DNA of 64,000 nucleotides, from the NCBI RefSeq assembly GCF_011044495.1, contig NZ_CP049143.1, positions 4,402,001 to 4,466,000 of the forward strand, read 5' to 3'. Of this stretch, positions 28,038 through 63,785 are shown piece by piece. Numbering within the stretch: position 1 is the stretch's first letter; every line of letters begins with the position of its first letter. This DNA is from Roseimicrobium sp. ORNL1. GTDB taxonomy: Bacteria; Verrucomicrobiota; Verrucomicrobiia; Verrucomicrobiales; Verrucomicrobiaceae. The translations under genes and the position numbers were made by a program. The notes under the pieces are model-generated. The model was not told the origin of the DNA and searched no databases. It saw nothing but the letters and a program-made list of their open reading frames with translations.

Positions 28038-31000
28038 TTACTTCTGCGGCAAGACCACCCGGATGAGCTCGCCCTGATCGGTGGTTAAAAGTGCAGGAGA
28101 GTTCTCATCCGCCATCCAAATCGGAGAGCCTCTGCAGACAAACGGCAGACGATAACCTGCCACCACCTCCCCCGATCTCTGGTCGAGCCTCAAGAGCAGG
28201 CGTGCATCTTTGAGGATAAATCGTGGCTGCCAGAGATGACTGCTGGGCACGGCATCCGCAGGTACTGAATCAAAAGATGCCACACCCGGATCCTGCTTTT
28301 CCACGGTGAGGGCATCTTTTGTGACCCTCAGGTGAAACATGCGGCCACCTTCCGCAACTCCCAGGGAGCCATCCTTCCCCCACCAGGCCACCGTTGCCTC
28401 CGAGGGACCTTCCATTGACGGCCGCTCTGCGGTCGTGTCCAGCAGCCTGCCATCCGAGCTCAACCACAGTGCGCGAAACTTGGTACGGAAGGCCCCTTCA
28501 CTTGGCACGGTGAAGATGACCCCAGACTCATCCACCGCCACCTCTGAGCTTCGCGGATTCACGGGCAGCACCTGTCGAGGAAGCTCTTCATAGGGAAGAT
28601 TGGTATCCAGCGGCACCACACGCAACGCGGAATCTGGACGTCCATCGCGTGGCCACTCCAGACAAAGAATCTGGCGGTCATCAAACATGAACACACTTTC
28701 GTGCCCTTTCAAAACGGGGCTTTCAAAGGAGCGGATGAGTTCCCAGGGAACCTTCGAAGTGTCATACACGCGGATACCTCCCTGTCCACCCATCACAGCA
28801 CGTGGACGAGCATTGGAGATGAACCAGGTGGCGGCTTCCATTCCAAAATTCCCCATGAACTCCACGTCGGCCTCCGGCAGAATCTGCGGCATGGCTTCTT
28901 CCTCATACCGGCGGAACTTTTGCAGGCGCACTGCGGGCGCGCCGGCATCCAACGTCCCACTCGCGGTAAAAACAAGGTAGTGCGCTCTGGACACGTCCGG
29001 CCGCAAGATGGATCCGTCTGGTTCGAAGATATCTCCAAATTCCACCGCCCAGCCCCCTGGACGCAACAGTCGCATGGATGGCTGGAGATCGTCCGACACA
29101 CCCCGAGTATCAAACCCTGCCATTTTGGCGATGGGTTTCTGCTTTTCATCCATCACCACGAGGTTCAGCCCTTGGGGAAGACGCCCACTCCAGAGGGGGA
29201 GTGAATCACTTTCTTCGAGATCCACACGGAGGAGGTACTCCATACCCTTTTCGACCGGAATCACTTCCGACAATGGGGTGCCAAACTCATCGCGGACTTC
29301 CGGTGGCCATACCGGCGCAGGACCTTGAGGCACCCGCTTGCTGTGCAATTCCGCACGAGTGATGCAATATGGGTTCGCCGAACCTATCGCCATGAGTCCA
29401 TTGCGAGGATTCTTCACCAGCATTCTCACCCATCCGCTTGGTGGCAGATCTTGAATGGTCATTTCTCCCTGAGCCGGCACAGCCTCCGCACCCGCGATCT
29501 TTCGCATGGCATCTGGAGACGCACCCACGTGGATCTCCAAGTCGTATTTTCCCGACAACACGTGCAGTGCAGGAGCCTTGTAAGGCGCCCCAAAGTTTTC
29601 ACCGTCCATCACCATGGTCTGAATGCGTGCCTTATCGCTCAGCTCGATCGGTATCTCCATAGCCCAGCGCACACGCGGTGGACCACCCTCTGGCGCCGCA
29701 TCGTGGACTTCGATGGCCACTGCGGGAAACTTTTGCTCGCCATGCCCCAGGCAATCACGACAAGCTCGCAACCGGCTCAAGGTCGTGCGGAACTGAACCG
29801 ACCCGTATTCGCTGAACGTGTTGAGCATCTGCTTTTCGAAAGTGGCGAGCTCGTCCGTGAGGTTGGCAGAAAGGAGACAATCCAGCACCACGACAGCGGT
29901 GAGCTCGTCTGCATCGCCTTCCTTCAATGAACGGGTCCAGGCAGCACTCCATGATTCAAATGCCAGCCGCGCAAGGTCCCGACCACGCTCCGGGGATGCA
30001 GTCACCATGGCATCCACCACGCTGCGCACCATGCGCCGGCACTCCATCCACTCCTCTTTGATGTCAAGGCGGCGACGATGGCCGCTTTCACGCCATGCCT
30101 TGAGACAGGCCTCACGCTCCTCTGCATTGCCATGCACCATCGCGAGCGCCAGAAACTGTGGCCAGAGGTCTGCGCTCGACTGGGAGTCACCAGAAAGGTT
30201 CTGCTTCACAAGCTTTTCCCGCAAGAGAGGAAGCAACGTTGGCAGCAGCGACGCCTTCGTGGTCTCGTCCAGCAAGGGAAGCAGTTGCAGGGATTGCCGG
30301 AGATTAGAACCCCGGCTTACTCCGCCCTCCTGTAGCTTGAGCAGGGCTGGTATGCCTTCCGCAATCCACGGAGCGAGTAGCTGTTCGTCCACGCTCCCTG
30401 GTGGTGACAGCACACGGAGCCGCCATGCCACACGCAGTCGGGACGCCGCGTCCAGTCCTTTCGCACCGGCCAGGGCCTCAGGATTCAACGGAGAAACCAT
30501 GGAACGCGCCAGCAGGACACACGATACGAGGTGGCAATCATCCTGATGTCTTCCGACAGCAGCCTCCGCTTCCTGAAAGAAATCCCCGTGCGGTTCCCTC
30601 AACGCTGTTTTCATGAGGGAGGGAATCATTCCCCGGACATCCACCGTCCAGGGTTTGTCTCCCCAGAAGGCAGTTGCGGCAAAAGGTTCCGCTATTTCCT
30701 GATGCGCGGGGATCTCCACCTGCATGTCATCTCCCATCGGCGTGAGGAGGATGGCGCGAGCAAGTGCAGTCGAAGCCTCATGGTGCCCTGCCTGGTCCCA
30801 ATCGTCGATTCTCTTGAGGAGTTGCGCCACGTGCGACACCAGGAGATGCTGCTGGTGCTCGCGAACGGACTTCAGCAGGAGCGCCAGTCTCTGCGGCTGT
30901 AGTGGTGTATCGTCCACATCCAGCACTGCTTGAAGCATGGCAAAGGCCATGGACTGGGCGGTGCCGGATTTGGTTTTGGAAAAGGAGTCCGCCAGCGCCG

Positions 31001-31586
31001 AGTTCAACTCGTCTGTGCGCTTCGCCCGGGCAATGCGCGCCACCCAGCCCGCTGTCGGAGGAGCAAGTGCCGTAAAAAACTCCGGCGGTCTGGCAAAGTC
31101 CGTGCGGCGCAGCGCCTCCAGAAACATGTCTGCTGCATATTTCTCCTCCTTCATCCGGGCATAGCTGATGCCCCGGCGCAACCAGGCGTCCGGCTGCTCT
31201 GGATTCAGCACAAGGTCGAGTTGCTCAGCTTCGGCCACATCGGTGGTGCGCTGACGGCTGGCGCGCGCGAGTGCGGCGAGCACGCGGGCCTTCACCGCAT
31301 GGTCCGGCTGTTGTTTCACCTCCGGTTTGAGCTTCTGATAGACCCGCTGGAGCAGATCATATTTCTTCACTCCGGGGAAAGCATCCGGCAAGGCGGCCAC
31401 CACCCTGTCTGCTTCGCCATTGGTGATGCGAACGCACTGGCCGGGATCTGAGAACAGTGTAGCAACGGCCTTTGCGGCCATCTCTGGCAGCTCTCTCGCC
31501 CCGTCCTTCTCCTGGGCATGCACCGTGGAAGAGACGATACCAACCAGCAGGACAGCCGTGCCCATGATCCGTTTTGCGCATCTCAT
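28038..31586 (-). CDS. Large secreted protein of unknown function (1182 aa)
   Basis: Not recognised. A short N-terminal signal (RIMGTAVLLVGIVSSTVHAQ) is followed by about 550 residues of helical TPR/HEAT-like composition (for example PEQPDAWLRRGISYARMKEEKYAADMFLEALRR). The second half (about residues 590-1182) is beta-rich with repeated Asp, Gly and Trp blocks (GGWAVEFGD, FMFDDRQILCLEWP, VDESGVIFTVPSEG, TVAWWGKDGSLGVAEGG), like a propeller or lectin-like module. It is the downstream neighbour, on the same strand, of the 1338-aa dehydrogenase/cytochrome gene, with 226 bases between. Confidence 0.72.
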   Translation of the reverse strand: MRCAKRIMGTAVLLVGIVSSTVHAQEKDGARELPEMAAKAVATLFSDPGQCVRITNGEADRVVAALPDAFPGVKKYDLLQRVYQKLKPEVKQQPDHAVKARVLAALARASRQRTTDVAEAEQLDLVLNPEQPDAWLRRGISYARMKEEKYAADMFLEALRRTDFARPPEFFTALAPPTAGWVARIARAKRTDELNSALADSFSKTKSGTAQSMAFAMLQAVLDVDDTPLQPQRLALLLKSVREHQQHLLVSHVAQLLKRIDDWDQAGHHEASTALARAILLTPMGDDMQVEIPAHQEIAEPFAATAFWGDKPWTVDVRGMIPSLMKTALREPHGDFFQEAEAAVGRHQDDCHLVSCVLLARSMVSPLNPEALAGAKGLDAASRLRVAWRLRVLSPPGSVDEQLLAPWIAEGIPALLKLQEGGVSRGSNLRQSLQLLPLLDETTKASLLPTLLPLLREKLVKQNLSGDSQSSADLWPQFLALAMVHGNAEEREACLKAWRESGHRRRLDIKEEWMECRRMVRSVVDAMVTASPERGRDLARLAFESWSAAWTRSLKEGDADELTAVVVLDCLLSANLTDELATFEKQMLNTFSEYGSVQFRTTLSRLRACRDCLGHGEQKFPAVAIEVHDAAPEGGPPRVRWAMEIPIELSDKARIQTMVMDGENFGAPYKAPALHVLSGKYDLEIHVGASPDAMRKIAGAEAVPAQGEMTIQDLPPSGWVRMLVKNPRNGLMAIGSANPYCITRAELHSKRVPQGPAPVWPPEVRDEFGTPLSEVIPVEKGMEYLLRVDLEESDSLPLWSGRLPQGLNLVVMDEKQKPIAKMAGFDTRGVSDDLQPSMRLLRPGGWAVEFGDIFEPDGSILRPDVSRAHYLVFTASGTLDAGAPAVRLQKFRRYEEEAMPQILPEADVEFMGNFGMEAATWFISNARPRAVMGGQGGIRVYDTSKVPWELIRSFESPVLKGHESVFMFDDRQILCLEWPRDGRPDSALRVVPLDTNLPYEELPRQVLPVNPRSSEVAVDESGVIFTVPSEGAFRTKFRALWLSSDGRLLDTTAERPSMEGPSEATVAWWGKDGSLGVAEGGRMFHLRVTKDALTVEKQDPGVASFDSVPADAVPSSHLWQPRFILKDARLLLRLDQRSGEVVAGYRLPFVCRGSPIWMADENSPALLTTDQGELIRVVLPQK

Positions 31587-31812: not shown

Positions 31813-34800
31813 CTACTCTCCCTTCAAGAACGCGAGCAGGTCGGCCATCTGTTCCTTGGTGATGCCGCCCTCCAGTCCCACGGGCATGAGGCTGGCATCA
31901 AGACTCTTCATCTTGGCGATGTTGGCACGGGGCACGACTTCCGTGATGCCACCGGCCATCTTCACCGTGACTTCCGTGGAAGTTTCCCCGGCAATCAGTC
32001 CGGCGACGACACGGCCATCCTTGGTGTCGATTTGATAGGCCATCCAGCGGGCCTCCACCATGCGGTTGGGATCGAGGATGTCACTGAGGAGGGCTTCCTT
32101 CTCCTTGATGCGCACATCCGTGATGTCCGGGCCAACGTCCACGCCAAGGCCTTTCACCTTGTGGCAGGTGATGCAGATGGTTGAGAAGACCTGCTGACCC
32201 TTCGCTGAGTCGCCCTTGGTTTTGATGGCGTCGTGATAAGCGGTGATCACTGCGGCACGATCCCCGCTTGGGCTGCCGAAGATCTTGGTGGCCAGGTCGA
32301 ACATGGGATTGCCGGGGCGGAGATAACGCCAGCGCGTTTCGGCATCGACGAAGGCCTTCGGAAGCTCGCCGCGATCGATGCGTTCAAAGAAGTCCTTCAC
32401 TGTCTTGCCGTTGCTCGTGAGCAACTTCACGACTTCAAGACGCTGCGTGGGTCCGAGCTTGGGCAGAAGTTCGTAGAGCAGCGTAGCGGTCTTGTCCGCA
32501 CCGAATTTCTTCAGCAACGCGAAGGCTGCCGTGGAGATTTCCAGTGGCTGGCTGTCATCCAGCAGCGTGCGCATCACAGGCTCCGCCTTGTCCCACGAAC
32601 GTTGGGCGAGCAGCGGGATGCAGGCGAGGCGTTGCTCCGCGGGGGCTTTGGCATCCACCATGACTTTGTCTACGAGGCCAAGCAGTGCGGTGATCTCGGC
32701 GGCGGCAGCTTTGTATTGCTCGGGAGGAGTCGCGGTAAATTGAGCGAGCGACTTCACGCCGAGCTTGCCACCGGATTTGGGCAGGCCTTCCGAGAGGCCT
32801 TGGAGAAGGGCGGGTTTCCACCAGGCGAGTTTACCTTCACCATTCTTGAGGCTGGAAAGTGCGGCGCTGAAATCATCCGCATCCGCGTCCGTGGCACAAC
32901 TGGCAGCGAGGGCGCGCACGAAATCTGACTTCTTCACAGTGTAGCCCTCTGAAACTGCCTTGTTCTCGAGCAGCTTTGAAAGAACAGTTCCCGCTCGCTG
33001 CGACGTTGCTGCCAGTACAGCGCGTTGAATCCAAGGATCTTCGGCAAATCGAGTTGCTCCTGTAACGACAACGGAACCATCTTGCGGACGATTCTTGAAA
33101 TCGGTGCCAAGGATACCCAGCATGACACGCCTGCCGTCGCTGCTTTGCACTGCGTCTGTGCTGTCGCTCATGATATGATCATTTGCGAGAGGCAGCTCCG
33201 TCCGGAAAAGGACATTGCCAGCGTTCACGTCCTTCAATGCCTTGTCGATGGAACCTTGAATTCTCGCATTGAGATTCAGCTCTCCCGAATTCTTGGGAAC
33301 CAAAGCTCGCATCACGCATGTGATATGAAGGCCGGCCAGCGGCGTCAGACTTCCAGGCTTCACTGCATTAAACACATCGGTATACTTTGCTTTTTGCTCC
33401 ACCAGCAACCGCTGCGCCGTCTCACGCTGCCAGGCGTTTGGATGCCCCAGCCACCTCACAAGCCCTTCCACTGTGCGGGGAGCGCGAAAGCGATCCGCAC
33501 TGGGTGCGGGAACCGGAACAGCGGAGTCCTCATCGGAAATGGATGAGAACTTGATATTATCCACTCCAGCCTGAGCAACGCTCTTCATCAATTCCTGAAT
33601 CTCCACTGCAGCAAGGCCTTTTCCTCCTCGTACCACCAAACCTTCCTTGGCAATTCTCGATTTCAGTGCTGCGATCTCAGCAGGAAGTGAAGCGCGACTG
33701 ACGATTCTGCCCTCCAGCACAAAGCCATCCGCTGCGGACTTGTAGGTCAGCGTGACCTGCCCTCCTTTGGGTGAGGCGGGTGCCGCCTGAGACTCCTTGG
33801 CCTTCTTCGGCACGATGCGCCAGATACGCCCTTCATTCTCACCCTGGCGGATGTCATGGGTCTTCACAAAGGACTCCGGGAAGAAGCGGGCGTGGTCGAT
33901 GTAGCGGCGATACATGTCGCAGACGTAGAGAGCGCCATCGGGACCGGTGGTGATGTTCACCGGGCGGCACCATTCATCGTGGCTGCCGAAGAACTCCTTG
34001 TGGTCCCCTACGCGTGTAGCCTTCAGGCTGGCGCCATTCGGTTCCACGATGTAGCGCGTGATGAGCTGACCGGTGGGATCCGGCACGAAGATGTTTCCCT
34101 TCAGTTCCGGCATGAGGTCACCACGATAGACGCCGAGACCGCAGGCTGCGGTGTTCGTGCCGGCATGGGCATCGGCTGTAGTATGAGTTAATTGAAGTGG
34201 ATACACCCGGGTCTCCGCTCCGAAGGCGGCAATGTCCTCCCAGCCCTGCGTGATGCCGGCATTGGGGTTGCGAATCACCGCTTCATACGGCATCACGGCG
34301 AACATCACCGGATTGCGATTCGAACTGAAGAAGTGGCGCCCCCAGTCATCGAAGCAGCCGCCGAACTGACCAAAGCCGGTGGTGGGCTCGAGCTTTCCCG
34401 TGGCAGGGTCATAACGCAGATTGCAGCGAGTGAAGTTCGACTTCGCGTCCGGCGAGCCCGCAGGATAGATCTCCTTCGTATCAAGGCCATTGTTGAAGTA
34501 GATGCAGTTGTCCAGGCCCCAGCGAGGCGCAGAGACCTGGAGCTGGGAGTGATTCGGATTGAAGCCGTCCACGAGCGGCTTCCTTTCATCTGCGACCCCA
34601 TCTCCGTTGGTGTCGCGGATGAAAAGAATCTGCGTGCGTGTGGTGGCCACAAGGCCGTCACGGAAGGGCAAAAGCCCCTGCACATGATCGACCTTATCGG
34701 CAAACGTGATGGCACGGTCATACTGGCCATCACCATTGTCATCGATGAGCTGCTGGATGCGGGACAGCGGCGGCTTTCCCGGGCCTCCACCCAGGGGATA

Positions 34801-35829
34801 GTCGATCATGTCCGCCACATAGCAGCGGCCCTGCGCGTCCCAGGTCATTTCGACCGGGTCACGCACGAGAGGTTCCGCTGCGACAAGCTGGACCTCATAG
34901 GGACCGTCCAGCTCAATGGACTTCTGCGTCTGCTCCGGAGTCCACGAGGTCTCGCGGCTTGCCTTCACGTCGATGTCTGAGCCACCGGAGGCCTGCACGG
35001 GATCCCACTTCTCCTTGAACTCACCGAGAGGATACAGCTCAAAGCGCTTCACCACCATCTCCGCGCCCTCGGTCTGCAGGCAGATCTTGCCAGAGCTGGG
35101 CTTGCAGTCGAAGGCCTCATTCACCAGCACCCCGTTCACGAAGTACTGGAGCGTATCGCCCTTCGCGATGACTTCGAGGCGGGTCCACTCCTTCACGCGG
35201 GATTCCACGTCATCCTTGCCACGGAAGCCAGCCACGTCCTTCCAATCGACGTCGCGCTTTTCCCAGTTGATGCGGCCCTTGGTGACGGTCTGGCGGGGCT
35301 CGCCCTTCTTCCAGATCTTCTCCTTGTCGCGATCCAGCGTGAGCTCGGAGGACAGGCTGGTCACGACTTCCGTGCCGTCTTCCAGCTTCGGAGAGAGCAC
35401 GAGGATGTCCCCCACCCCGCCTTCGATGATCTGGGCTTCGATGCTGGCCATCCACGTGCCACCGTACGCGCCATCCGGTCCGTGGCTGTGCACCAGGAGG
35501 CCGTTGTCACGAGCCTTGCCTTCACGCGAGCCCATGGTGGGACCGGTGAACATGAAGTCGATGACCAGGTGGTAGTCCTGGTAGTCTTCATTCGTGCGCA
35601 CGTAGCCGAAGCCGTTGCCGCTCACCTTGAGCTGGCCCTTGGGATCCAAGGTGAAAATCTTATCAGGTGGATCGTGGAGGGTCTGTTTTTGATTGATGTT
35701 ATACGTGACCTTTCCGGCTTTGATCGCCTGGAGGACATCGATCTTTTGCTTCACCACCTCAGCGGCGGGAAGCGCACCCGCGAGGGCGCCAGATGCGATC
35801 AGAGTGATGAACTTGCGTAGTGCTGACAT
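31813..35829 (-). CDS. Secreted DUF1080/dehydrogenase/HEAT/c-type heme-binding protein
   Basis: 1338 aa from the ATG at 35829. A Sec signal (MSALRKFITLIASGALAGALPAAE) is followed by a DUF1080/3-keto-disaccharide-hydrolase-like domain (about 30-280, with LVHSHGPDGAYGGTWMASIEAQIIEGG). Next is a propeller of the 'putative membrane-bound dehydrogenase' type (about 310-650, with PVEMTWDAQGRCYVADMIDYP and NGLDTKEIYP), a HEAT-like helical region, and a C-terminal heme-binding domain with CITCH at about residues 1217-1221, of the Pirellula/Verrucomicrobium type. Such proteins are typical of the PVC group and of polysaccharide degraders. Probably periplasmic; heme acts in electron transfer from a sugar-related oxidation, which is an inference. 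Confidence 0.88.
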   Translation of the reverse strand: MSALRKFITLIASGALAGALPAAEVVKQKIDVLQAIKAGKVTYNINQKQTLHDPPDKIFTLDPKGQLKVSGNGFGYVRTNEDYQDYHLVIDFMFTGPTMGSREGKARDNGLLVHSHGPDGAYGGTWMASIEAQIIEGGVGDILVLSPKLEDGTEVVTSLSSELTLDRDKEKIWKKGEPRQTVTKGRINWEKRDVDWKDVAGFRGKDDVESRVKEWTRLEVIAKGDTLQYFVNGVLVNEAFDCKPSSGKICLQTEGAEMVVKRFELYPLGEFKEKWDPVQASGGSDIDVKASRETSWTPEQTQKSIELDGPYEVQLVAAEPLVRDPVEMTWDAQGRCYVADMIDYPLGGGPGKPPLSRIQQLIDDNGDGQYDRAITFADKVDHVQGLLPFRDGLVATTRTQILFIRDTNGDGVADERKPLVDGFNPNHSQLQVSAPRWGLDNCIYFNNGLDTKEIYPAGSPDAKSNFTRCNLRYDPATGKLEPTTGFGQFGGCFDDWGRHFFSSNRNPVMFAVMPYEAVIRNPNAGITQGWEDIAAFGAETRVYPLQLTHTTADAHAGTNTAACGLGVYRGDLMPELKGNIFVPDPTGQLITRYIVEPNGASLKATRVGDHKEFFGSHDEWCRPVNITTGPDGALYVCDMYRRYIDHARFFPESFVKTHDIRQGENEGRIWRIVPKKAKESQAAPASPKGGQVTLTYKSAADGFVLEGRIVSRASLPAEIAALKSRIAKEGLVVRGGKGLAAVEIQELMKSVAQAGVDNIKFSSISDEDSAVPVPAPSADRFRAPRTVEGLVRWLGHPNAWQRETAQRLLVEQKAKYTDVFNAVKPGSLTPLAGLHITCVMRALVPKNSGELNLNARIQGSIDKALKDVNAGNVLFRTELPLANDHIMSDSTDAVQSSDGRRVMLGILGTDFKNRPQDGSVVVTGATRFAEDPWIQRAVLAATSQRAGTVLSKLLENKAVSEGYTVKKSDFVRALAASCATDADADDFSAALSSLKNGEGKLAWWKPALLQGLSEGLPKSGGKLGVKSLAQFTATPPEQYKAAAAEITALLGLVDKVMVDAKAPAEQRLACIPLLAQRSWDKAEPVMRTLLDDSQPLEISTAAFALLKKFGADKTATLLYELLPKLGPTQRLEVVKLLTSNGKTVKDFFERIDRGELPKAFVDAETRWRYLRPGNPMFDLATKIFGSPSGDRAAVITAYHDAIKTKGDSAKGQQVFSTICITCHKVKGLGVDVGPDITDVRIKEKEALLSDILDPNRMVEARWMAYQIDTKDGRVVAGLIAGETSTEVTVKMAGGITEVVPRANIAKMKSLDASLMPVGLEGGITKEQMADLLAFLKGE

Positions 35830-35966
35830 GCGAAATCTTACGACCATCATCCACGCTTTTTACCTCTTGGGAAGGGCTCTGGCACAGAAGCGTGCAAACT
35901 ACGCACTTTCCGCGCAGTTGAACTTGTGCCATGCTTTTTCCATAATTCCGCTGCCTACCAACTGCC

Positions 35967-37623: not shown

Positions 37624-40038
37624 TCACATCCCACTCTGCTCCACCCTCGCCCACCGTTGGCGGAAGGCGCGGTTCTCTTCCATGAGCTGTGAAGCCACCG
37701 GCGAGACGATGTGATAGAGTCCCTGCATCTTCGCAAAGACCACAATCAATTCCTGGCGGCGATAGTACTCGGTGGAGTCTGTCACGGTCTCCAGGGTGCT
37801 CTGCGCAATAGCCACCAGCAGATCTGGTGTAAGCGCATCCGTCTCGATGCTCACCTGACCACGCTCCAGCGAGACCACACTGGTGTCGTAGCCGAGATGC
37901 GTGAGGCGTCCCTGCAGAGGAATGCCCGTGCGGCGGGGCAGTGTGCCTGCATAACCACGCGCCGTAATATCCGCCATGAGCGTGGTCATGAATTCCTTGG
38001 CCTTGGACCAGAGATAGAGGCGATCCGCGATGGCGTTCTGCACCTCCGGAGTCTGGAAGTTCATGCTCTCCAGCAGTTCCACGCCCTGGCTGTAGTCGAA
38101 CCCACGCACCAATGAAGGCAGCGATTCATTCAGCTCTTTGAGCTGCACCAGTTCCCGCTGGCGTAGGGCATTGATACGGGCGCGCTCCGCTTCCTCCGCC
38201 ACGCGGCGCAGACGGGCCAGTTCCTGCTGGGCAAACTTCGAGCGATCCTCCAGCTTGTGGCGCAGGGCGCCGGGAAGCTTGATGTCACCCAGCACCTCCT
38301 TCACCTGCACAAAAGCAAGGCGGGCATTCTCGATGCTGCCGAAGGGCGTGTTGCTAAGGTCTCCCAGCTTGCCCGCCAGATCATACTCCGCGAAGTACGG
38401 GGCGATGAGCTTCTGGTAGGAAGGAAGCCACTCTGTCATACGGCCAGGGGTGCAGGCCTGAAACTCACGCAGCCAAGCGATGGCGACATCCGGATCCTTG
38501 CCGAAGTGCCACTGGGCCACGCCATGCGCAAGAAACCCGAGCGCTGCCTCCGTGGCGCCGTCATAGGTCACATCCTTGCGTGGCAGCTCAAGCGCCAGGT
38601 CCTTTGCCATGCGATCGGCGATGGCTGAGAAGAACTCCGAGGACTCCGCCGTCGCCGGCATGGTGCCTTCATCGGAATCCTTCTTGATGGCGCGGAAGTA
38701 GCGCTGGGCCGCCTCCTTCTTTCCATCAAAGATGGCGCAGAGTGCCGCGTTGAACCGCGTCTTGTTCAGCGTGGGCTGCTTCACGCGGCCACCTTCGCGA
38801 TCGTTGAGCGCGATGATTTCATCAAAGAGCTTCCGAGCCTCCGCGAACTTCCCTTCGAAGAGCATGTTGCGCGCGTTGGTGAAGACATCCGCAATGGGAG
38901 TAGATCCTGACGAGAGCGTGCGGCCCACCGAGGATAGTTCCTCCTCACCGGCACCCTGGGTGATCTCCACCGACTTCATCTCCACCTGAGGACGCGGACG
39001 CAGCAGCAGACCGAGCAAGATGGTCACCACCGCCGCGCCACCCACGGCGTACACCAGCCGCTGGCGGCGTGAGCGACGGCCAATCACGGAATAGCCCAGG
39101 AGGCTCTCAGCATCACGGAAGGCATCTACAAGCGCGTCGTAGGTCTGGTGACGATCGGACGGCTTGAGCGCCAACATGCGATTCACCAGCTCACAGGTTC
39201 GCTGGGAAAACTTGAATCCGCTGTCCTCCAGACGCACCGGCTTGCTCTTGATGATCTTGAGCTCGGCGATGGAGTTCGTGTTCGCCTGGTGAGGCGGTTT
39301 GCCCACCAGCGCGTGGTAGAGCGTCGCGCCGAGGCTGTACATGTCACTGCGGAAGTCCTCGGTATCGTCGCGCACCTTCTCCGGGGCCACATAGAAGGGC
39401 GTGGCCCAGATTTCGCCGGAGTCGTCCTTGTCGCGCTCATGGAAGAGAGCGAGACCGAAGTCCACGATCTTGGGCGTACCCTCATCAGTGAAGAGGATGT
39501 TCGCCGGCTTCACGTCGCGGTGGATGAGACCTTCGCGGTAGGCGGCGCGGAGACCTTCCGCCACCATGCGGCCCACGTGCAGGGCATCCGCCTCGGAAAG
39601 GCGTCCCTGATCCGCGATGCGGCCCTCCAGGCTGCCACCGCCCACGAGTTCCATGGCGATGTAGAAGTTCCCCTGGTCGCGGCCCACGGAGTAGAGCTTC
39701 ACCACGTTCGGGTGGGTCACGGCGGCGGTGAGCTGGGCTTCGCGCTCGAAGCTCGCCATGCGCACGCTGTCCTTGCTGTAGTGGCGGTTCAGGATCTTCA
39801 GCGCCACATGCCGCCCGAGGGTGGCATCCTCGGCGCCAAACACGCGGCTCATGCCGCCTTCGCCGAGTTGCTTGAGGATGGAAAAGTGGTCGAATTTGCG
39901 CCTTACGCGCACGGCCTGCCCGCAGTGGGGGCAGGTCACCTTGCTGTACGGCTCGAAGGGTGTGACATCGAGCACGCCCTCGCAAGCCGGGCAGGTACTA
40001 AGGTAAGTTTGAGGAGTTTCTGACTGGGGAGGTGTCAC
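37624..40038 (-). CDS. Membrane Ser/Thr protein kinase with zinc ribbon and extracytoplasmic C-terminus
   Basis: 804 aa from a GTG at 40038. The N-terminus has two CxxC pairs (CPAC 16-19, CPHC 36-39) that fit a zinc ribbon. The kinase domain spans about residues 50-310: GEGGMS (59-64), VALK with Lys81, HRDVKPAN (173-180), DFG (193-195) and APE (218-220), all intact, so an active Hanks-type kinase is expected. A transmembrane helix follows (about 329-347), then about 450 residues of helical, TPR-like composition with Lys/Glu-rich stretches, placed outside. This is a typical receptor-kinase layout for the PVC group; the ligand is unknown. Confidence 0.9.
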   Translation of the reverse strand: MTPPQSETPQTYLSTCPACEGVLDVTPFEPYSKVTCPHCGQAVRVRRKFDHFSILKQLGEGGMSRVFGAEDATLGRHVALKILNRHYSKDSVRMASFEREAQLTAAVTHPNVVKLYSVGRDQGNFYIAMELVGGGSLEGRIADQGRLSEADALHVGRMVAEGLRAAYREGLIHRDVKPANILFTDEGTPKIVDFGLALFHERDKDDSGEIWATPFYVAPEKVRDDTEDFRSDMYSLGATLYHALVGKPPHQANTNSIAELKIIKSKPVRLEDSGFKFSQRTCELVNRMLALKPSDRHQTYDALVDAFRDAESLLGYSVIGRRSRRQRLVYAVGGAAVVTILLGLLLRPRPQVEMKSVEITQGAGEEELSSVGRTLSSGSTPIADVFTNARNMLFEGKFAEARKLFDEIIALNDREGGRVKQPTLNKTRFNAALCAIFDGKKEAAQRYFRAIKKDSDEGTMPATAESSEFFSAIADRMAKDLALELPRKDVTYDGATEAALGFLAHGVAQWHFGKDPDVAIAWLREFQACTPGRMTEWLPSYQKLIAPYFAEYDLAGKLGDLSNTPFGSIENARLAFVQVKEVLGDIKLPGALRHKLEDRSKFAQQELARLRRVAEEAERARINALRQRELVQLKELNESLPSLVRGFDYSQGVELLESMNFQTPEVQNAIADRLYLWSKAKEFMTTLMADITARGYAGTLPRRTGIPLQGRLTHLGYDTSVVSLERGQVSIETDALTPDLLVAIAQSTLETVTDSTEYYRRQELIVVFAKMQGLYHIVSPVASQLMEENRAFRQRWARVEQSGM

Positions 40039-57354: not shown

Positions 57355-57371
57355 GAATGAGTTGGATAAAC

Positions 57372-59033
57372 TTAGTTACGAATCACGATGTGCTTCGTCT
57401 GTCCGTCGCGCTGGATCTTCAGCACCACAGGGGCGCCGTCTTCGTCACCGCGATTGGAGCGGGCTTCAGCCGTGGTCTTCACATTCTGGCGATTCACCTG
57501 AACGATGACGTCACCTTCCTGGAGACCCACCTTGGCGGCGGGGCTGTCGTCCTTCACCGAAGTCACCACCACACCCTGGACCTTTTCGTCCAGGCCGTAG
57601 TCCTTGCGGAGTTCATCGTTGAGGTTTTCGATTTTCACGCCTTCGAGGAAGGAACCACCCTTTTCAGGAGCAGCCTTGCCGCCGGGGCGCTGGCCCACGT
57701 TGGCAAACTTGTCAGCATCGAGCTTCTCAAGGGTCGCGGTGAGTTGCAGGTTCTCGGGCTTCTTCGTCTTTTCGTTGAAGCGGATCACACCGAACTTCAC
57801 GGCTTCACCAGGATGCTTGCCGCTGATCATGAGGCGCAGCTTGGAGGGCTGTTCGACCTTTTCGCCGTCGGCGCTCACGATGACGTCACCGCCGAGCAGG
57901 CCGGCCTTTTCCGCAGGGGAATCAGTCACCACTTCGGACACGGTCACACCACGGGAATCATTCAGGCCATAGAAGTCGGCCATGCTGGGATCCACATCGG
58001 ACATGACAACGCCGAGGAAGCCACGGTCCACCTTGCCGTCATCGAGCAGGTCGGTGACGATGGAGAGGGCCATGTTCGACGGGATGGCGAGGCCGATGCC
58101 GGAGAACATGCCGCTACGGGTTTCGATGGCGGTATTGATACCGATGACGCGGCCGAGACCGTCCACCAGCGGACCACCGGAGTTGCCGGGGTTGATGGCG
58201 GCATCAGTCTGGATGAAGTTTTCATAACCGGACTGCTGCTTGTGGCGGATGATGCCCACGTCGCTACGGCCAAGGGCACTGACAATGCCCTGGGTCACGG
58301 ACTGGTCGAGGCCCATCGGAGAACCGATGGCAAGCACCACGTCACCCACGCGCAGCTTGGCGCTGTCACCGAAGGTGGCCTTGGGCAGATCCTTCGCATC
58401 GATCTTGATGAGAGCGATGTCAGTCGAAGGGTCGGTACCGATCACCTTGGCGATGTATTCCTTGTTCTGGCCACCGATGCGCACCTTGAGCTGGTCGGCA
58501 TTTTCCACGACGTGATTGTTCGTCATGATGTAGCCGTCGCTGGTGAGCAGCACGCCGGAACCGAGACCGGTCTGGCGGGGGCCCTGAGGACGCTGACGGC
58601 GGGGGCTGTTGCCGCCGCGCGGAGACGGGGCGTTGCCTTCCTCACCATGGCGTTCCATCCAGTCCTTGAAGAACTCACGGAACATGGGTGGAAGCTGCTC
58701 CATGTCATCTTCGCTCATGTCGGGGCCTGCGTGACCGCCACCACCACCGGCGGCAAGGCTTTTGGTGGAGTAGGTGCCGATGCTGACGACGGTGGGAAGC
58801 GTACGCTCCACCACGTCTGCATAGCTGAGGGTCACCTGACCGGCATTGCGGACTTCAGCGCTGTCGCGCGCAATCTGCGAAAGGAACTCCGCGGGTTTGA
58901 GCTTGGGCACCACCTGGGGTGCCGGCTTGATTTCGGTGGGCTGCTTGTTTTCTTCCTGGGCGATCACGATGGCCGCCGCTCCGAGCATGGCCACACCGGC
59001 AATGGCAAGGGATTTTGATTTAGGTATATTCAT
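57372..59033 (-). CDS. Do/HtrA family serine endoprotease
   Basis: 553 aa. A Sec signal (MNIPKSKSLAIAGVAMLGAAAIVIAQ) starts a periplasmic HtrA-type protease. The catalytic triad is H174 in TNNHVV, D205 in STDIAL and S285 in GNSGGP. A Gly/Pro/Arg-rich loop (residues about 95-155) lies before the protease core, where DegP-type proteins have the LA loop. Two PDZ domains follow (RGFLGVVMSDVDPSMADFYGL... and EGVKIENLNDELRKDYGLDEKV). It degrades or refolds misfolded periplasmic proteins. The upstream gap (59034-59325) contains a direct repeat GATGTATTG twice. Confidence 0.94.
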   Translation of the reverse strand: MNIPKSKSLAIAGVAMLGAAAIVIAQEENKQPTEIKPAPQVVPKLKPAEFLSQIARDSAEVRNAGQVTLSYADVVERTLPTVVSIGTYSTKSLAAGGGGGHAGPDMSEDDMEQLPPMFREFFKDWMERHGEEGNAPSPRGGNSPRRQRPQGPRQTGLGSGVLLTSDGYIMTNNHVVENADQLKVRIGGQNKEYIAKVIGTDPSTDIALIKIDAKDLPKATFGDSAKLRVGDVVLAIGSPMGLDQSVTQGIVSALGRSDVGIIRHKQQSGYENFIQTDAAINPGNSGGPLVDGLGRVIGINTAIETRSGMFSGIGLAIPSNMALSIVTDLLDDGKVDRGFLGVVMSDVDPSMADFYGLNDSRGVTVSEVVTDSPAEKAGLLGGDVIVSADGEKVEQPSKLRLMISGKHPGEAVKFGVIRFNEKTKKPENLQLTATLEKLDADKFANVGQRPGGKAAPEKGGSFLEGVKIENLNDELRKDYGLDEKVQGVVVTSVKDDSPAAKVGLQEGDVIVQVNRQNVKTTAEARSNRGDEDGAPVVLKIQRDGQTKHIVIRN

Positions 59034-59325: not shown

Positions 59326-62300
59326 TTAATACACCACACCCTTTTCGCGGCACCATGCCGCAGCCTCGGCATTGCCCTGCGCGGCGGCTTTTTGATACCA
59401 CTGGGTGGCCTGCGTCCTGTCTGCAGGAATTCCGGTGCCATACTCCAGAGCATGGGCGTACTGCTGCATGCTCTCCGCGTGCCCACGGCGGGCTCCCTCT
59501 GCGAAGAGTTGCACGGCAAGAGACGGATCTTCCGCAACACCCTGCCCGCGCAAATAGAGGGCGCCAAGATTCCCACAGGCGGAGACCACCCCTGCACGAT
59601 ACGCCTCACTGCACAGCGCAAATGCACGGGCATCATCGCGAGGCACGCCCTTGCCGAGTCGATAGCAGACGCCGAGGAGATCCTTCGCGTGGCCATCCCC
59701 CGCGGCGACGGCATTGCCCAGTAGTTCCACCGCTTTCATCGGGTCTGTCGGGGTGCCCCAGCCCTGAAGATGACATTCCGCCAGCGGTACATTGGCAGCC
59801 ACACTGCCAGCCTGCGCCGCCTTCTCAAACCAGATGAACGCCGCGCGCTCGTCCACCGCACCCACATCCCCGCGCAAGCTGGAGCGTCCAAGAGCAAGCA
59901 TGGCCTCGGCATCGCCACGAGAAGCGGCGCGTTCCGTATCCGCACGGAGAGCGGCAGGGAGCTTCCCTCCGGTGATGCGGAGTTCAGCGAGCTTCGTTTT
60001 GAGAGAAGCATCCGTTGCTCCTCCAGCCGTCTCGAACGGTGCTGGCGATACCGAAGGCGCGGGCATTGGTGAGAGCGCTGCGGTCGGCGGTGGCGTCGGG
60101 GCTATGACGGGAGCTGGTGGCGAAGGCTTGGGCGCAGCAACGGGAGAAGCGGGCTTGACCGATGAAGGGGCTACCGAGCCGGCAGCCGCAGTCTGTCTGG
60201 GAGGAGTAGCCTTGGGTTCGATGTTTACGTCCTTGAAAGTGGATCCGGCGGGCGCAGGAAGCGTTGGCGTTCCTGCTGGCTGCTTTTTCGGAGCCACGGG
60301 CAGGTCGATCACCGGTGCCTTCAAGACATCACGATCGTCCACCAACACGGCCTTCGGCGCTTCAATATCCTGCCAGAGTGCGCGGCCGGAAAGATGGGCA
60401 AGCAGCGCACCCAACACCAAGGACCCGATCAGCAGCAGAGCCAGACGGATCCAAAAGGAAGTCTCCTCATGCATGGGGCGCCATGAACTCTCACTCTCTG
60501 GCAGTGCGTGCATTCTGCCTCGAAGCGGCCGGAGCCCCCCCTCATCCTCGTGCCCAGCATGGTCGTGGTCGTGCACCTGGGTCTGGCGGATGAGGGCCTC
60601 CGCAAAGCCGATGGTCGGCTTCGGTGGTGGCTGGTGCGGATGCGGAGAGGTAAGCGGAGGTGTGGCCGCCTTCTTTTCCGGCAGGCGTGTGAGAGGTCGC
60701 AGCCCTTCGGCTGGAGCCGGGCCTGCCACCTTGGGCTGGTACACGGGGGCCTCTTGCGCTTGCGCGCCGGCAATGGCCGCGGGTTCCGGTGACAATTGAG
60801 CACCGCTGACCTCTGTCCACGCTGGGGTCGGCCGGGCGGCAGTCCTAGGCACATCAAACTGCTGGATCACGCGGGCGTACTTGGCGAGGAAGGCCGCACG
60901 TTTCACAGGCGCCCCCTCCCGGGCATGATGCACTTCTTCGGCCAGGAGACGGCGCACACTGTCCGTTTCCGCAATGCCCGCCTCGTGCTTGGCAGCATCT
61001 GCATCCGGCATGCCGGCCAGGAAACAACCCAAGGCCGCCATCCAGCCGCCATGCCAGACGGGCTCGACGTCCTCAGCAGTGCTGGGCGCGACAGGAAGCA
61101 AGATTGCGGGATCCGTTCCTCTCCCTGAGACTGCGTGGAGGCAGGGATGCGCGCGAATGACGACGGAGAAGCCGGACCACTCATTCAGCCTGCGGGAGAG
61201 CAGGCCACTGTCGCGGGGTGATTCTTTGCCCACACCGGTGAAGAGAAAGACATCCTCCAAGCGCAGACGACGCGCGGGCAGGCCAGCTTTTTCCAACTGG
61301 GAAAGTGCGGTATCCACCCCGGCCAGCACGAGGTAGATCTCCTGCACACCGAGGGTGCCTCGAGCCTCCAGCACCTCCTGCAGCGTCACGCCCTCCACTG
61401 CGGTCTCAGCCACGGTCTGAATGCCGTCGTACTCCTCGACGAAAAGCACGGGGACGAGGTTGGGGAATTTGCCAGCCTTGGGGAGATTCTGCACCTGCCG
61501 GAAAAGCTCCGCAGGAATCGTGCCTGCCAGCCGGGCGGGCGGCACTTGCTCCACCACGACGGACTGGCCCAGCTTCAGCATGGTGCCGCGCAATGAGTAG
61601 GGGTGATAGGGATCCAGCTTCTGACTCTGGATGCGTACCGTGGAGGCAAGACTGCGGGCCACCTCGGTGAAACTGGCGAGCAGGAGGCCAAGGTAGGGGC
61701 GCGGCTTGCACGCGGAGGGCAGCTCCGCAGAGGGCACCTGCGGCAGGAGTGCAGCTATCTCGTTGAGCAGGGTGGAGATGCCCTCGGCTTTCTCCGGACC
61801 ACAGGCGCCCAGGAGATTCTGCAGCATTTCGACGAAGTCCGCCGCTTGCAGGGTCGCTGCCCCAGGGGACACACCGTTTTCCAAGCGCTCCTGAAAGAAG
61901 GCCATGAGGAACTGGCTCTGCTTCTCCAAGGAAGTGCGTGCCTGCCGTGCCTTTGCGGCCTTCGAAGCAGGGTCCTCCGCGAGGCGGTAGTCCGCCACGG
62001 AGACCTGCAGGGTCTGGGCACCTGTCTGGATAATGCGCAGTCCATCCAGAGGCTGGGTGGGAACGAAGTCGCCGACCTCGACAAGCGCCTGCATCGCCTC
62101 CAGGGCGGAATGCGTGACCTGCATGGCAAGCCAGACGGGCAGGGTATCTGTGCGCTCCAGATAGGTGCGCAGCGTCTCACCATCCACATTGGCGGTGATG
62201 TAGAAGGGACTGCCGTCGTCCTCGCCATAGTCCAGCAAGCGGGCGAGGCGCGTGTGGCCGTGGTTCTGCATTTGCCTGGCTCGCTCCTCAAAGGCCGGAC

Positions 62301-62463
62301 GATCCTTCAAGGGCTCCAGAAGCACATGGAAATGCACGAAGACATGGCGCTCCGAATCGAAGGCGAGAACGCCCACCTGCTCTGCGGACCGTACCACCTC
62401 GATGTTTTTTCCCCCGGCTTCCTGAGCGATGAGGTAATGTCGGAATTGCGTCGGACCCGGCAT
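59326..62463 (-). CDS. Tandem pseudokinase-like protein with membrane segment and Sel1 repeats
   Basis: 1045 aa from the ATG at 62463 (the frame opens at a TTG at 62508). Residues about 1-220 show a kinase-like fold (VFVHFHVLLEPLK, FYITANVDGETLRTYLERTDTLPVWLAMQV) but the HRD-like site is TQPLDGLRI and the DFG position is VADYRLAE, so no active residues are seen. Residues about 270-480 are a second kinase-like block (VLFVEEYDGIQTVAETAVEGVTLQEVLEARGTL, RRLRLEDVFLF), also without a catalytic triad. A proline-rich linker, a transmembrane helix (about 670-690), a Pro/Ala-rich stretch and Sel1-like repeats (about 834-1045) follow. Confidence 0.8.
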   Translation of the reverse strand: MPGPTQFRHYLIAQEAGGKNIEVVRSAEQVGVLAFDSERHVFVHFHVLLEPLKDRPAFEERARQMQNHGHTRLARLLDYGEDDGSPFYITANVDGETLRTYLERTDTLPVWLAMQVTHSALEAMQALVEVGDFVPTQPLDGLRIIQTGAQTLQVSVADYRLAEDPASKAAKARQARTSLEKQSQFLMAFFQERLENGVSPGAATLQAADFVEMLQNLLGACGPEKAEGISTLLNEIAALLPQVPSAELPSACKPRPYLGLLLASFTEVARSLASTVRIQSQKLDPYHPYSLRGTMLKLGQSVVVEQVPPARLAGTIPAELFRQVQNLPKAGKFPNLVPVLFVEEYDGIQTVAETAVEGVTLQEVLEARGTLGVQEIYLVLAGVDTALSQLEKAGLPARRLRLEDVFLFTGVGKESPRDSGLLSRRLNEWSGFSVVIRAHPCLHAVSGRGTDPAILLPVAPSTAEDVEPVWHGGWMAALGCFLAGMPDADAAKHEAGIAETDSVRRLLAEEVHHAREGAPVKRAAFLAKYARVIQQFDVPRTAARPTPAWTEVSGAQLSPEPAAIAGAQAQEAPVYQPKVAGPAPAEGLRPLTRLPEKKAATPPLTSPHPHQPPPKPTIGFAEALIRQTQVHDHDHAGHEDEGGLRPLRGRMHALPESESSWRPMHEETSFWIRLALLLIGSLVLGALLAHLSGRALWQDIEAPKAVLVDDRDVLKAPVIDLPVAPKKQPAGTPTLPAPAGSTFKDVNIEPKATPPRQTAAAGSVAPSSVKPASPVAAPKPSPPAPVIAPTPPPTAALSPMPAPSVSPAPFETAGGATDASLKTKLAELRITGGKLPAALRADTERAASRGDAEAMLALGRSSLRGDVGAVDERAAFIWFEKAAQAGSVAANVPLAECHLQGWGTPTDPMKAVELLGNAVAAGDGHAKDLLGVCYRLGKGVPRDDARAFALCSEAYRAGVVSACGNLGALYLRGQGVAEDPSLAVQLFAEGARRGHAESMQQYAHALEYGTGIPADRTQATQWYQKAAAQGNAEAAAWCREKGVVY

Positions 62464-62681
62464 GCTTTCGATTACCCTGACAATCGGCAACCTTGAGGGA
62501 ATTTGCAAGAAGCGAGTATGCGATCAAGGGCAATATGAAAGCCACGATGGTGAACCGTCCTTCACCCGCAACGACCGCCTGACAGCACTTTCCCTGCTAT
62601 CGAAGTCTATCGATGAGCCTTGAGGACATGTCTTGCCCAGTCTGCGCATGCGGATTGCGAACAACACCGTCCTACGACACT
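62464..62681. other. Gap between the pseudokinase and zeta-toxin genes
   Basis: 218 bases. It should carry the promoter of the pseudokinase gene. The plus-strand frame that covers it is antisense to the zeta gene and does not look coding. I saw no repeat or RNA gene in it. Confidence 0.35.
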
Positions 62682-63785
62682 TTAGGCAGTGGCTTCGGTT
62701 CGCCGTTCTCCTTTTCGTATACGGTCAGCTCCTTCTTCCAATTTTCGAAGGCTTTCCTCACCAACTGCGGACCATCCAGAGGCAAGGGTTTCAACGGTTG
62801 TGAGGTTGCCCCTGAGCCATTCGCGGATGACATGCTCCCGGAAGCGTTGTGCGAGGAGTTGTTTGCTTCCATTTTCACCTTGGGAAGCGTAGGACCGTTC
62901 GCGAAGGAACTCAAGGGACTTCTCCTCGATCTCTTCCGGTTTTCCTTCGTTCACAAAGACCAGGAAATCCGCCCTGTCGCGGTACATTTGCTCGAGCTTC
63001 AGGAAGGTCACCTGGGCCTCGTGGTGATTGTCTGCCAAAGTGTTCGCCGAGATGGGCCGCCCATTCTTCCGAAGTCGGCGCAATACGAATCTCTCCACCA
63101 AGTACATGGGCGAATAAATGAAGATCACCTGCGGACGGAGCCCCTGTTCAATCGCAGCGCTGATCAGTTCTATGCCTCTCGCCATGGTGGCGAGATTGGA
63201 GTCCACGATGATGGAAGTAACATCCAACAAGGTCTTCAGAGCACCCTTCGACACGGTGGTTTTTCCCGACGACGGACCGCCAGCCAGAAGCAACCCCAAT
63301 GGGCGGCCCTTTCTGTCCCGGCGCAGAATCTGAGGAATCGCCAACCGGCGGGTCAGATGGCTCACCGGCGCATAGGTGGCACGATGGAAAATGGTGCGGA
63401 ACTCGTGATCTCGTGCGTATTCAGGAAACAACGAGAGGGCAAGGTCCGCATTCACATAACAATCAGAGCCAAAATCCTCGCGTGCGAGAGCGAGATACTG
63501 CTCCACGGCTCCTTTCAAATCCACGGCGATGAGTTGAGCAAACCGCGCCTCCACCACTCGCTCCATGCGCGTGAGACTCGCAGCAGGAACCAATCCCGGC
63601 AACCCGGAGTAGCCATGCATGGCGTCTTCGTCTACCGCACGCAAAAATTCAGGATGGAGCTCACTAGCCAGGCGTGCAGCAGTCTCTTCTGACCTGGAAA
63701 GGGCGTCTTCCAATTGCTTCCACGCACACGCGACCAATTTTCGCTGGTTCTCCAGATTGATCGGCGCGGCGTCGGAACTATCCAT
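62682..63785 (-). CDS. Zeta-toxin-like P-loop kinase
   Basis: 367 aa. The Walker A LLLAGGPSSGKTTVSKG at about residues 161-177 is typical of the zeta toxin family, followed by VTSIIVDSN, PQVIFIYSP, and an ISANTLADNHHEAQVTFLKLEQMYRDRADFLVFVNEG block. The N-terminal 150 residues (LEDALSRSEETAARLASELHPEFLRAVDEDAMHGYSGLPGLVPAASLTRMERVVEARFAQLI) are a helical extension not found in classical zeta. Known zeta toxins phosphorylate UDP-GlcNAc; its role here may be a toxin or an unrelated kinase. No epsilon antitoxin was found in the window. Confidence 0.8.
   Translation of the reverse strand: MDSSDAAPINLENQRKLVACAWKQLEDALSRSEETAARLASELHPEFLRAVDEDAMHGYSGLPGLVPAASLTRMERVVEARFAQLIAVDLKGAVEQYLALAREDFGSDCYVNADLALSLFPEYARDHEFRTIFHRATYAPVSHLTRRLAIPQILRRDRKGRPLGLLLAGGPSSGKTTVSKGALKTLLDVTSIIVDSNLATMARGIELISAAIEQGLRPQVIFIYSPMYLVERFVLRRLRKNGRPISANTLADNHHEAQVTFLKLEQMYRDRADFLVFVNEGKPEEIEEKSLEFLRERSYASQGENGSKQLLAQRFREHVIREWLRGNLTTVETLASGWSAVGEESLRKLEEGADRIRKGERRTEATA

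Follow-up and report, generated by a model that had tools for sequence, protein, structure and literature searches.

A verrucomicrobial membrane protein with two predicted pseudokinase domains and a Sel1-repeat tail

Two predicted kinase folds in one membrane protein

We analyzed a 64,000-nucleotide stretch of Roseimicrobium sp. ORNL1 (contig NZ_CP049143.1, positions 4,402,001 to 4,466,000; hereafter, the window). A gene on its minus strand (59326-62463, with an ATG at 62463) encodes a protein of 1045 amino acids that we call DPK, for double pseudokinase, membrane helix, and Sel1 protein. An alternative TTG start extends the minus-strand reading frame to 59326-62508; the ATG start is supported by orthologues, whose N-termini coincide with that of the 1045-residue product. 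The plus-strand reading of 59326-62463 is interrupted by stops. DPK is almost certainly a membrane protein in which two Hanks-type kinase folds stand in tandem, neither with the residues needed for catalysis, ahead of a single membrane helix and a tail of Sel1 repeats. We regard this identity as near certain, with the folds being those of predicted models. Its parts are:

59326..62463, minus strand: DPK, double pseudokinase with membrane helix and Sel1 repeats, 1045 amino acids (open reading frame list, Pfam, common start of orthologues)
61714..62463, minus strand: domain 1, residues 1-250, predicted pseudokinase with a reduced C-lobe (AlphaFold2 model of residues 1-256, VIA alignment)
60850..61695, minus strand: domain 2, residues 257-538, predicted pseudokinase (AlphaFold2 model of residues 1-538, VIA alignment)
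60457..60849, minus strand: weakly conserved linker ahead of the membrane, residues 539-669 (comparison of orthologues)
60400..60456, minus strand: predicted membrane helix, residues 670-688 (hydropathy 2.26)
60373..60399, minus strand: AHLSGRALW block where the membrane helix ends, residues 689-697 (motif count in orthologues)
59329..59934, minus strand: Sel1 repeats, residues 844-1045, presumed periplasmic (PF08238, E 9.8e-31; dN/dS 0.03)

Both N-terminal halves of DPK are modeled as kinases. AlphaFold2 with a 47-sequence alignment gives a pLDDT of 87.4 and a pTM of 0.89 for residues 1-538, while residues 1-256 alone give 90.3 and 0.88. With either model, the 50 Foldseek matches listed are all kinases or kinase-homology domains. 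Using VIA-align, in which we count Z differences below 1 as ties, domain 2 (residues 267-534) aligns with PknB (1o6y) at Z 16.5 over 223 residues (3.2 Å). Domain 1 aligns with CDK2 (Z 13.4, 165 residues, 2.5 Å), PknA (4x3f; Z 13.0, 187 residues, 3.9 Å), and the pseudokinase domain of MviN/Rv3910 (3otv; Z 12.4, 196 residues, 4.2 Å). According to the models, the fold is bilobal and Hanks-type in both halves, with a reduced C-lobe in domain 1. The pTM of the two-domain model suggests that the two domains are packed in a fixed arrangement. A first-pass annotation of this DNA had proposed two successive kinase folds without catalytic residues in residues 1-500. The predicted structures and fold searches bear out the two folds, although that of domain 2 reaches approximately residue 537 in the VIA alignment of the model.

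Standard annotation overlooks the double pseudokinase. Pfam detects only Sel1 in DPK (105.5 bits against a cut-off of 30.7, in five stretches) and nothing in the Sel1-less orthologues L103, L109, and L120. No Pfam kinase model exceeds its cut-off on DPK, and the gene is absent from the 29 PF00069 matches of its own genome. With the N-terminal half as the query, two NCBIfam models match weakly, PknB_PASTA_kin (E 4.9e-8, best stretch 58-126) and TOMM_kin_cyc (E 0.015, 348-407). PADLOC Ser/Thr kinase models also match weakly (best stretches 57-127 and 334-407), and these independent matches fall where the two domains are expected. Each half was also compared separately by hhalign, as a profile of 47 sequences, with 25 kinases from the same genome picked by the motif H[RG]DxKxxN. 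Domain 1 scores 97.3% (E 1.9e-11) and domain 2 scores 94.0% (E 1.4e-7), in agreement with the first-pass proposal. Against solved structures, a profile of 21 orthologues matches StkP (E 2.2e-4, residues 56-131) and PknA (E 0.0013, 42-125), and weakly STK33 (E 0.04, 313-407). A relative from another family (L081, f5) exceeds the Pfam cut-off for PK_Tyr_Ser-Thr (31.4 bits against 23.1). Judged by these profiles, domains 1 and 2 are each related to kinases beyond chance.

The catalytic positions of both domains are replaced by conserved, noncatalytic residues at most sites. We counted residues in alignment A2, which holds the window protein and 46 of 51 named loci (n = 47):

62326..62328, minus strand: H46, at the place of the domain 1 beta3 (VAIK) Lys; His in 47/47
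61990..61992, minus strand: D158, Asp at the domain 1 DFG position, mostly within D-F/Y-R; Asp in 47/47
61549..61551, minus strand: E305, at the place of the domain 2 beta3 Lys; Glu in 47/47 (hhalign column)
61252..61269, minus strand: R399-L-R401-L-E-D404, catalytic loop of domain 2 (A2 counts, hhalign columns)
61147..61155, minus strand: R437-A-H439, DFG position of domain 2; Arg in 47/47 and His in 47/47

In domain 1, H46 falls on the Lys of VALK when aligned pairwise with L228, an intact kinase; an orthologue outside A2 (L032) carries Arg there instead of His. The HRD Asp is unconserved. Residue 136, which matches it in one alignment, is Asp in 9/47 and Glu in 17/47, while residue 135 (P/T/S) sits there in the alignment with L228. 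Glycine-loop residues are also lost relative to a living kinase. Of the three catalytic residues that domain 1 had been said to lack, the beta3 Lys is indeed gone and no Asp is conserved at the HRD place, whereas the DFG Asp is retained in every sequence as D158.

The loss proposed for domain 2 appears to hold at all three positions. The HRD Asp place (399) is occupied by Lys (28/47) or Arg (19/47), and the catalytic-loop Lys and Asn have become R401 and D404 in 47/47. We set the DFG place by its position after the model strand 433-436, as the hhalign alignment stops short of it. Read from these positions, the domain 2 pocket is charge-inverted (Glu for the beta3 Lys, Lys/Arg for the HRD Asp, and Arg for the DFG Asp), and E305 and R437 may pair with each other. 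A conserved, complete catalytic set in a shifted position, which would have spoken for activity, was not seen among the 47 sequences. These share no invariant Lys, and the sole nearly invariant one, K253, lies between the two domains. The catalytic Lys, Asp, and Asn are missing from both DPK domains, and DPK is not a tandem of one living and one dead domain.

Bacterial pseudokinases are described as largely unexplored experimentally in the relevant part of a recent review (O'Boyle et al. 2025; PMC12599244). Like DPK, the GLW and DYD families outlined there have lost catalytic motifs and are membrane-associated; GLW is reported from proteobacteria, and DYD from actinobacteria and firmicutes. 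DPK has neither motif: GLW in place of HRD was not found in its catalytic loops, nor were DYD or a beta3 Lys-to-Arg change (DPK has His and Glu at beta3, and D-F/Y-R and R-A-H at the DFG places). MviN/Rv3910, of the ActPs3 family, likewise places a bacterial pseudokinase in a membrane protein. Its structural match to domain 1 is equaled by several active kinases, however, and the passages on it in the review mention no tandem such as that of DPK. The terms Verrucomicrob-, Sel1, tandem, dual, and "two pseudokinase" are absent from the available text of the review, and we found no report of a double-pseudokinase-Sel1 family in the open-access literature searched.

Conservation, membrane helix, and Sel1 tail

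DPK is conserved across its bacterial family. We called orthologues from rows with at least 41% identity and E of at most 1e-80. An orthologue-level match is present in 63 of the 68 family genomes; in five of these it is partial or broken up at contig ends, and one of the five has an internal stop. The five genomes without an orthologue are 52-88% complete, and three of them show weak paralogue-level matches. Among genomes at least 90% complete, the orthologue is present in 50/50. A single-sequence scan of the genome contigs recovered no relatives, while a profile from alignment A1 recovered the 51 named loci, which include Prosthecobacter, Verrucomicrobium, Brevifollis, Phragmitibacter, many Verrucomicrobia metagenome-assembled genomes, and one Akkermansia-labeled fragment. 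Compared with one genus mate (NG86 and YN00), dN/dS is 0.09 for domain 1, 0.07 for domain 2, and 0.03 for the Sel1 part, values that are rough given a dS of 0.94-1.7. YN00 returned no value for domain 1, the membrane stretch, or the periplasmic linker, and NG86 returned no dS for that linker. The family's retention of the gene suggests that DPK signals or acts as a scaffold in a way that has ceased to depend on enzyme activity.

The membrane helix ends in a conserved block. Scanning the residues after 540, we found a hydropathy peak of 2.26 at residues 670-688; together with the Pfam match, this agrees with the first-pass reading of a membrane helix followed by Sel1 repeats. The strict motif A[HE]x[ST]Gx[AG]xW stands at the helix end in 39/47 orthologues. 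Seven of the other eight have near variants, and L142 lacks the Trp. The chain continues beyond the block for 324-348 residues in three of the strict carriers (the window protein, L105, and L145) and for 38-115 residues in the remaining 36. Sel1 exceeds the Pfam cut-off in genera g1 (the window protein and L061), g8 (L070), and g11 (L064 and L105), and was not found by Pfam in L103, L109, L120, or the f5 relative L081.

Relatives, descent, and possible role

The relatives of DPK comprise both dead and living tandems. Eighteen further proteins (families f1, f3, and f5) lack the beta3 Lys in both domains and group with DPK by domain 1 as well as by domain 2 (SH-aLRT 100 and 99). The helix-end block recurs in 7/18 of them, all from f5 and f3, and in these seven the chain stops 2-3 residues past it, similar to tail-anchored proteins. 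The strict block occurs in 0/11 of the remaining double-dead relatives, 0/9 living tandem proteins, and 0/12 single kinases. The nine living tandems have K, D, and N intact in the first domain (9/9), and none has all three together in the second (0/9). A membrane helix is predicted in 7/9. Two are encoded in DPK's own genome (L095 and L182); a search with the L182 second domain found it in both genomes of the genus and, as one weak match, in another (3/50 genomes). Similar to DPK in layout is L228, from another order of the class: its 1042 residues contain a kinase, a domain 2-like domain, a membrane helix, and Sel1 repeats. It is 37% identical to DPK across 208 Sel1 residues and 25% identical across 172 domain 1 residues. 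Another living tandem, L231, also carries Sel1.

Living tandems outside the order also have other endings. L227 (2749-5850) ends in an FGE-sulfatase domain and L230 (3470-7507) in TPR arrays; therefore, the tandem has been joined to several kinds of outer part. A phylum-level alignment of second domains (A4) drifted to ordinary kinases (252/383 genomes, many rows covering only columns 36-152), and we do not use it as a family distribution.

Each DPK domain resembles its counterpart in living tandems. The top scores of the domain 1 profile are the first domains of three living tandems (E 3.7e-20, 5.1e-15, and 2.8e-13; best single kinase, 1.6e-9). The domain 2 profile scores highest on the second domains of six (E 2.1e-10 to 6.6e-7; best single kinase, 5.2e-6). 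In a tree of 88 domains built by a quick method, one side holds all 38 second domains (SH-aLRT 97). An insert shifts the DFG columns of the second domains in the underlying alignment, and we do not read the domain 2 DFG residues from it. A Trp directly precedes the DFG place in 8/9 living second domains (W-P in 7/9), as in the dead ones. Given nine relatives that pair a kinase with a degenerate domain, some with a membrane helix and Sel1, DPK therefore resembles a twice-dead descendant of a kinase-pseudokinase receptor. Such descent is most likely, with domain 2 probably losing activity first and domain 1 later. One phylum offers a natural series of single living kinases, living kinases joined to a dead domain, and proteins with two dead domains, which makes the evolutionary retention of dead kinases testable in a bacterium.

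Tandems of this kind have eukaryotic parallels. JAK and GCN2 are kinase-pseudokinase tandems. The plant tandem kinase-pseudokinase proteins described in PMC6170490 also pair a living kinase domain with a dead one in a single chain. The living relatives L095, L182, and L228 have this arrangement, whereas both DPK domains are dead, and we do not claim a common tandem origin with any of the eukaryotic proteins. Planctomycetota membrane Ser/Thr kinases share with DPK a cytoplasmic kinase domain, membrane spans, and a periplasmic repeat array, and are presented, in the portion of PMC11032199 that treats them, as kinases with C-terminal TPR or WD40 arrays. The terms "pseudokinase", "two kinase", and "Sel1" are absent from the available text of that paper.

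We propose that DPK acts through its cytoplasmic double pseudokinase. The two dead domains would form one packed, noncatalytic unit that binds and steers other proteins, with living Hanks kinases from its own receptor-like class as the most likely targets. The membrane helix with its AHxSGxAxW end, together with the periplasmic part, would either tether the protein or relay envelope signals to the double pseudokinase. DPK would then be a dead receptor retained for allosteric or scaffold work after both domains lost activity. This scaffold or allosteric mechanism is a tentative one, with the balance slightly against it. The genome has 28 PF00069 places, so partner kinases are at hand. Going by homology, its living kinase-pseudokinase proteins would be the better candidates. 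The predicted folds, lost residues, conservation, relatives, and architecture are observed here; topology, partner, signal, direction of regulation, and order of loss we infer. Taken as a whole, the best explanation is that DPK is the protein described above, serves, without catalysis, as a membrane scaffold or as an allosteric partner to living kinases, and descends from a kinase-pseudokinase protein; we consider this moderately probable.

A broader reading would be that Verrucomicrobiota hold a class of tandem kinase-pseudokinase receptors, of which the branch in one order became a twice-dead, fixed, family-wide regulator. With its charge-inverted pocket, it would pair with living paralogues in the membrane and set their output. 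A dead receptor of this sort would follow the dead-partner logic of HER3 or of the JAK pseudokinase domain. We regard this extension as doubtful.

Several observations weigh against the proposed identity, descent, and role. Domain 1 retains D158, and has Asp (9/47) or Glu (17/47) at residue 136, opposite the HRD Asp in one alignment. Half of the double-dead relatives (9/18) keep the HRD Asp and Asn in domain 2, and the second domains of living tandems keep the beta3 Lys in 2/9 and the HRD Asp in 4/9. The domain 1 profile does not rank L182 (7.8e-7) or L229 (1.6e-4) above single kinases, nor does the domain 2 profile so rank L230, L231, or L095. The 88-domain tree has long branches, and constraining the dead first and second domains to one clade makes it 27 log units worse yet is not rejected (AU p 0.091). 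The Sel1 tail is missing from many orthologues and must therefore be dispensable for the core function. In conserved neighboring places we found no active kinase, one kinase (37624-40038) having been tried and the other recurring neighbors being partly annotated. As housekeeping genes, the recurring neighbors HtrA and GuaA may be no more than markers of an old gene order.

DPK could instead be a structural scaffold of an envelope machine, akin to EssB/YukC of the Firmicutes type VII secretion apparatus and without a link to kinase signaling. By their description in the sections of PMC9600267 and PMC12599244 that cover them, EssB/YukC and DPK are both membrane proteins with a cytoplasmic pseudokinase, one helix, a helical outer part, and degraded motifs. 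The order of parts is also that of YukC (pseudokinase 3-206, transmembrane helix 220-243, extracellular all-helical domain 244-384; PMC9600267, in the part describing its layout). The conserved membrane-helix end is consistent with this, as is the next gene downstream:

57372..59033, minus strand: HtrA/Deg-like serine protease with PDZ domains, codirectional with DPK across a gap of 292 bases (Pfam)

An HtrA-like gene follows DPK codirectionally in the window and in 8/20 fetched loci (L061, L063, L064, L065, L067, L068, L070, and L080; that of L063 is cut by the contig edge), which span five genera (g1, g4, g7, g8, and g11). Among the named loci, partly from the same genomes, it is a neighbor in 5/51. 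We do not claim that DPK and the protease form a single operon, given the 292-base gap and scans for promoter and terminator patterns that say little. EssB/YukC has one kinase fold, a different outer domain, and a place in a secretion apparatus, whereas DPK has two kinase folds. The closest homologues that we found are receptor-like kinases of the living kind. When the neighbors of 21 loci are clustered, HtrA (in 8 loci) and GuaA (in 6) are the only ones present in more than four; the smaller recurring clusters, which are without annotation, may include a machine gene. We consider a purely structural envelope role unlikely.

A late internal duplication of one pseudokinase, independent of the living tandems, might also have produced both dead domains. 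The AU test does not reject the dead clade that this would require, and the domain 2 profile scores weakly on the first domain of some paralogues. The free tree is better by 27 log units, however, and unites the second domains of dead and living tandems. The two profiles pick first and second domains, respectively, in most living tandems, and the Trp and Trp-Pro ahead of the DFG place are shared by living and dead second domains. We find this origin still less likely than the envelope role, and prefer descent from a kinase-pseudokinase protein.

Gene neighborhood

The upstream neighborhood includes guaA in several lineages. It lies upstream of the DPK gene in g11, in g8, and in L137 (0.7 kb away), and guaB and guaA together lie upstream in two f3 genera (L087 and L088, with gaps of 46 and 109 bases). 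Partial guaA matches occur upstream in L062/L104 (g10; two open reading frames between) and L151 (at a contig edge); L137 and L151 are g9 loci by contig coordinates. The linkage of DPK to HtrA and guaA has the appearance of an old gene arrangement and favors orthology across families. The guaB-guaA linkage could also point to a purine signal, with domain 1 still binding a nucleotide and either carrying out unusual chemistry or acting as a nucleotide sensor, since guaB and guaA serve GMP synthesis and D158 is invariant (47/47). Set against this are the His in place of the beta3 Lys in all 47 sequences, the lack of any invariant Lys, the loss of glycine-loop residues relative to a living kinase, and the presence of guaA in only 4/43 named loci with more than 1.5 kb of upstream sequence, which together make nucleotide binding by domain 1 improbable.

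The first-pass annotation had named the intact kinase at 37624-40038 as a possible partner. This kinase (PF00069, E 1.3e-50) lies 19 kb from the DPK gene; even spacing of the 28 PF00069 places above cut-off in 7.96 Mb gives approximately 0.14 within 20 kb on either side. Its non-kinase part has no match in the 20 kb of a genus mate that carries 6/7 of the other same-side window genes, nor in 78 other loci (many reaching 6-10 kb from the gene, and some genomes counted twice), so that this pairing is very improbable. Conserved placement beside an active kinase, which had been suggested as a check, was not found for this kinase. By homology, the living tandems encoded in this genome would be better candidates.

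Another protein of the same genome (L185 1972-4080, near 6506053) is kinase-like without an HRD motif. It combines an FGE-sulfatase domain (E 1.4e-37) with two matches below cut-off, a weak receiver domain (E 0.0044) and Pkinase (195-320, E 4.5e-4).

Other genes of the window have features of their own. Upstream of the DPK gene is a zeta-toxin-like gene (62682-63785, minus strand; PF06414, E 2.4e-11), of which the genus mate's 20 kb contains only a 45-residue C-terminal match. Two open reading frames of 553 amino acids lie antisense to each other over nearly the same stretch (57357-59018, plus strand, and 57372-59033, minus strand, the HtrA-like protease). The minus-strand reading frame 28038-31586 (1182 amino acids) has no Pfam family above cut-off, and 31813-35850 (minus strand, 1345 amino acids) combines 3-keto-disaccharide hydrolase, DUF7133, and cytochrome c domains in a single chain (Pfam).

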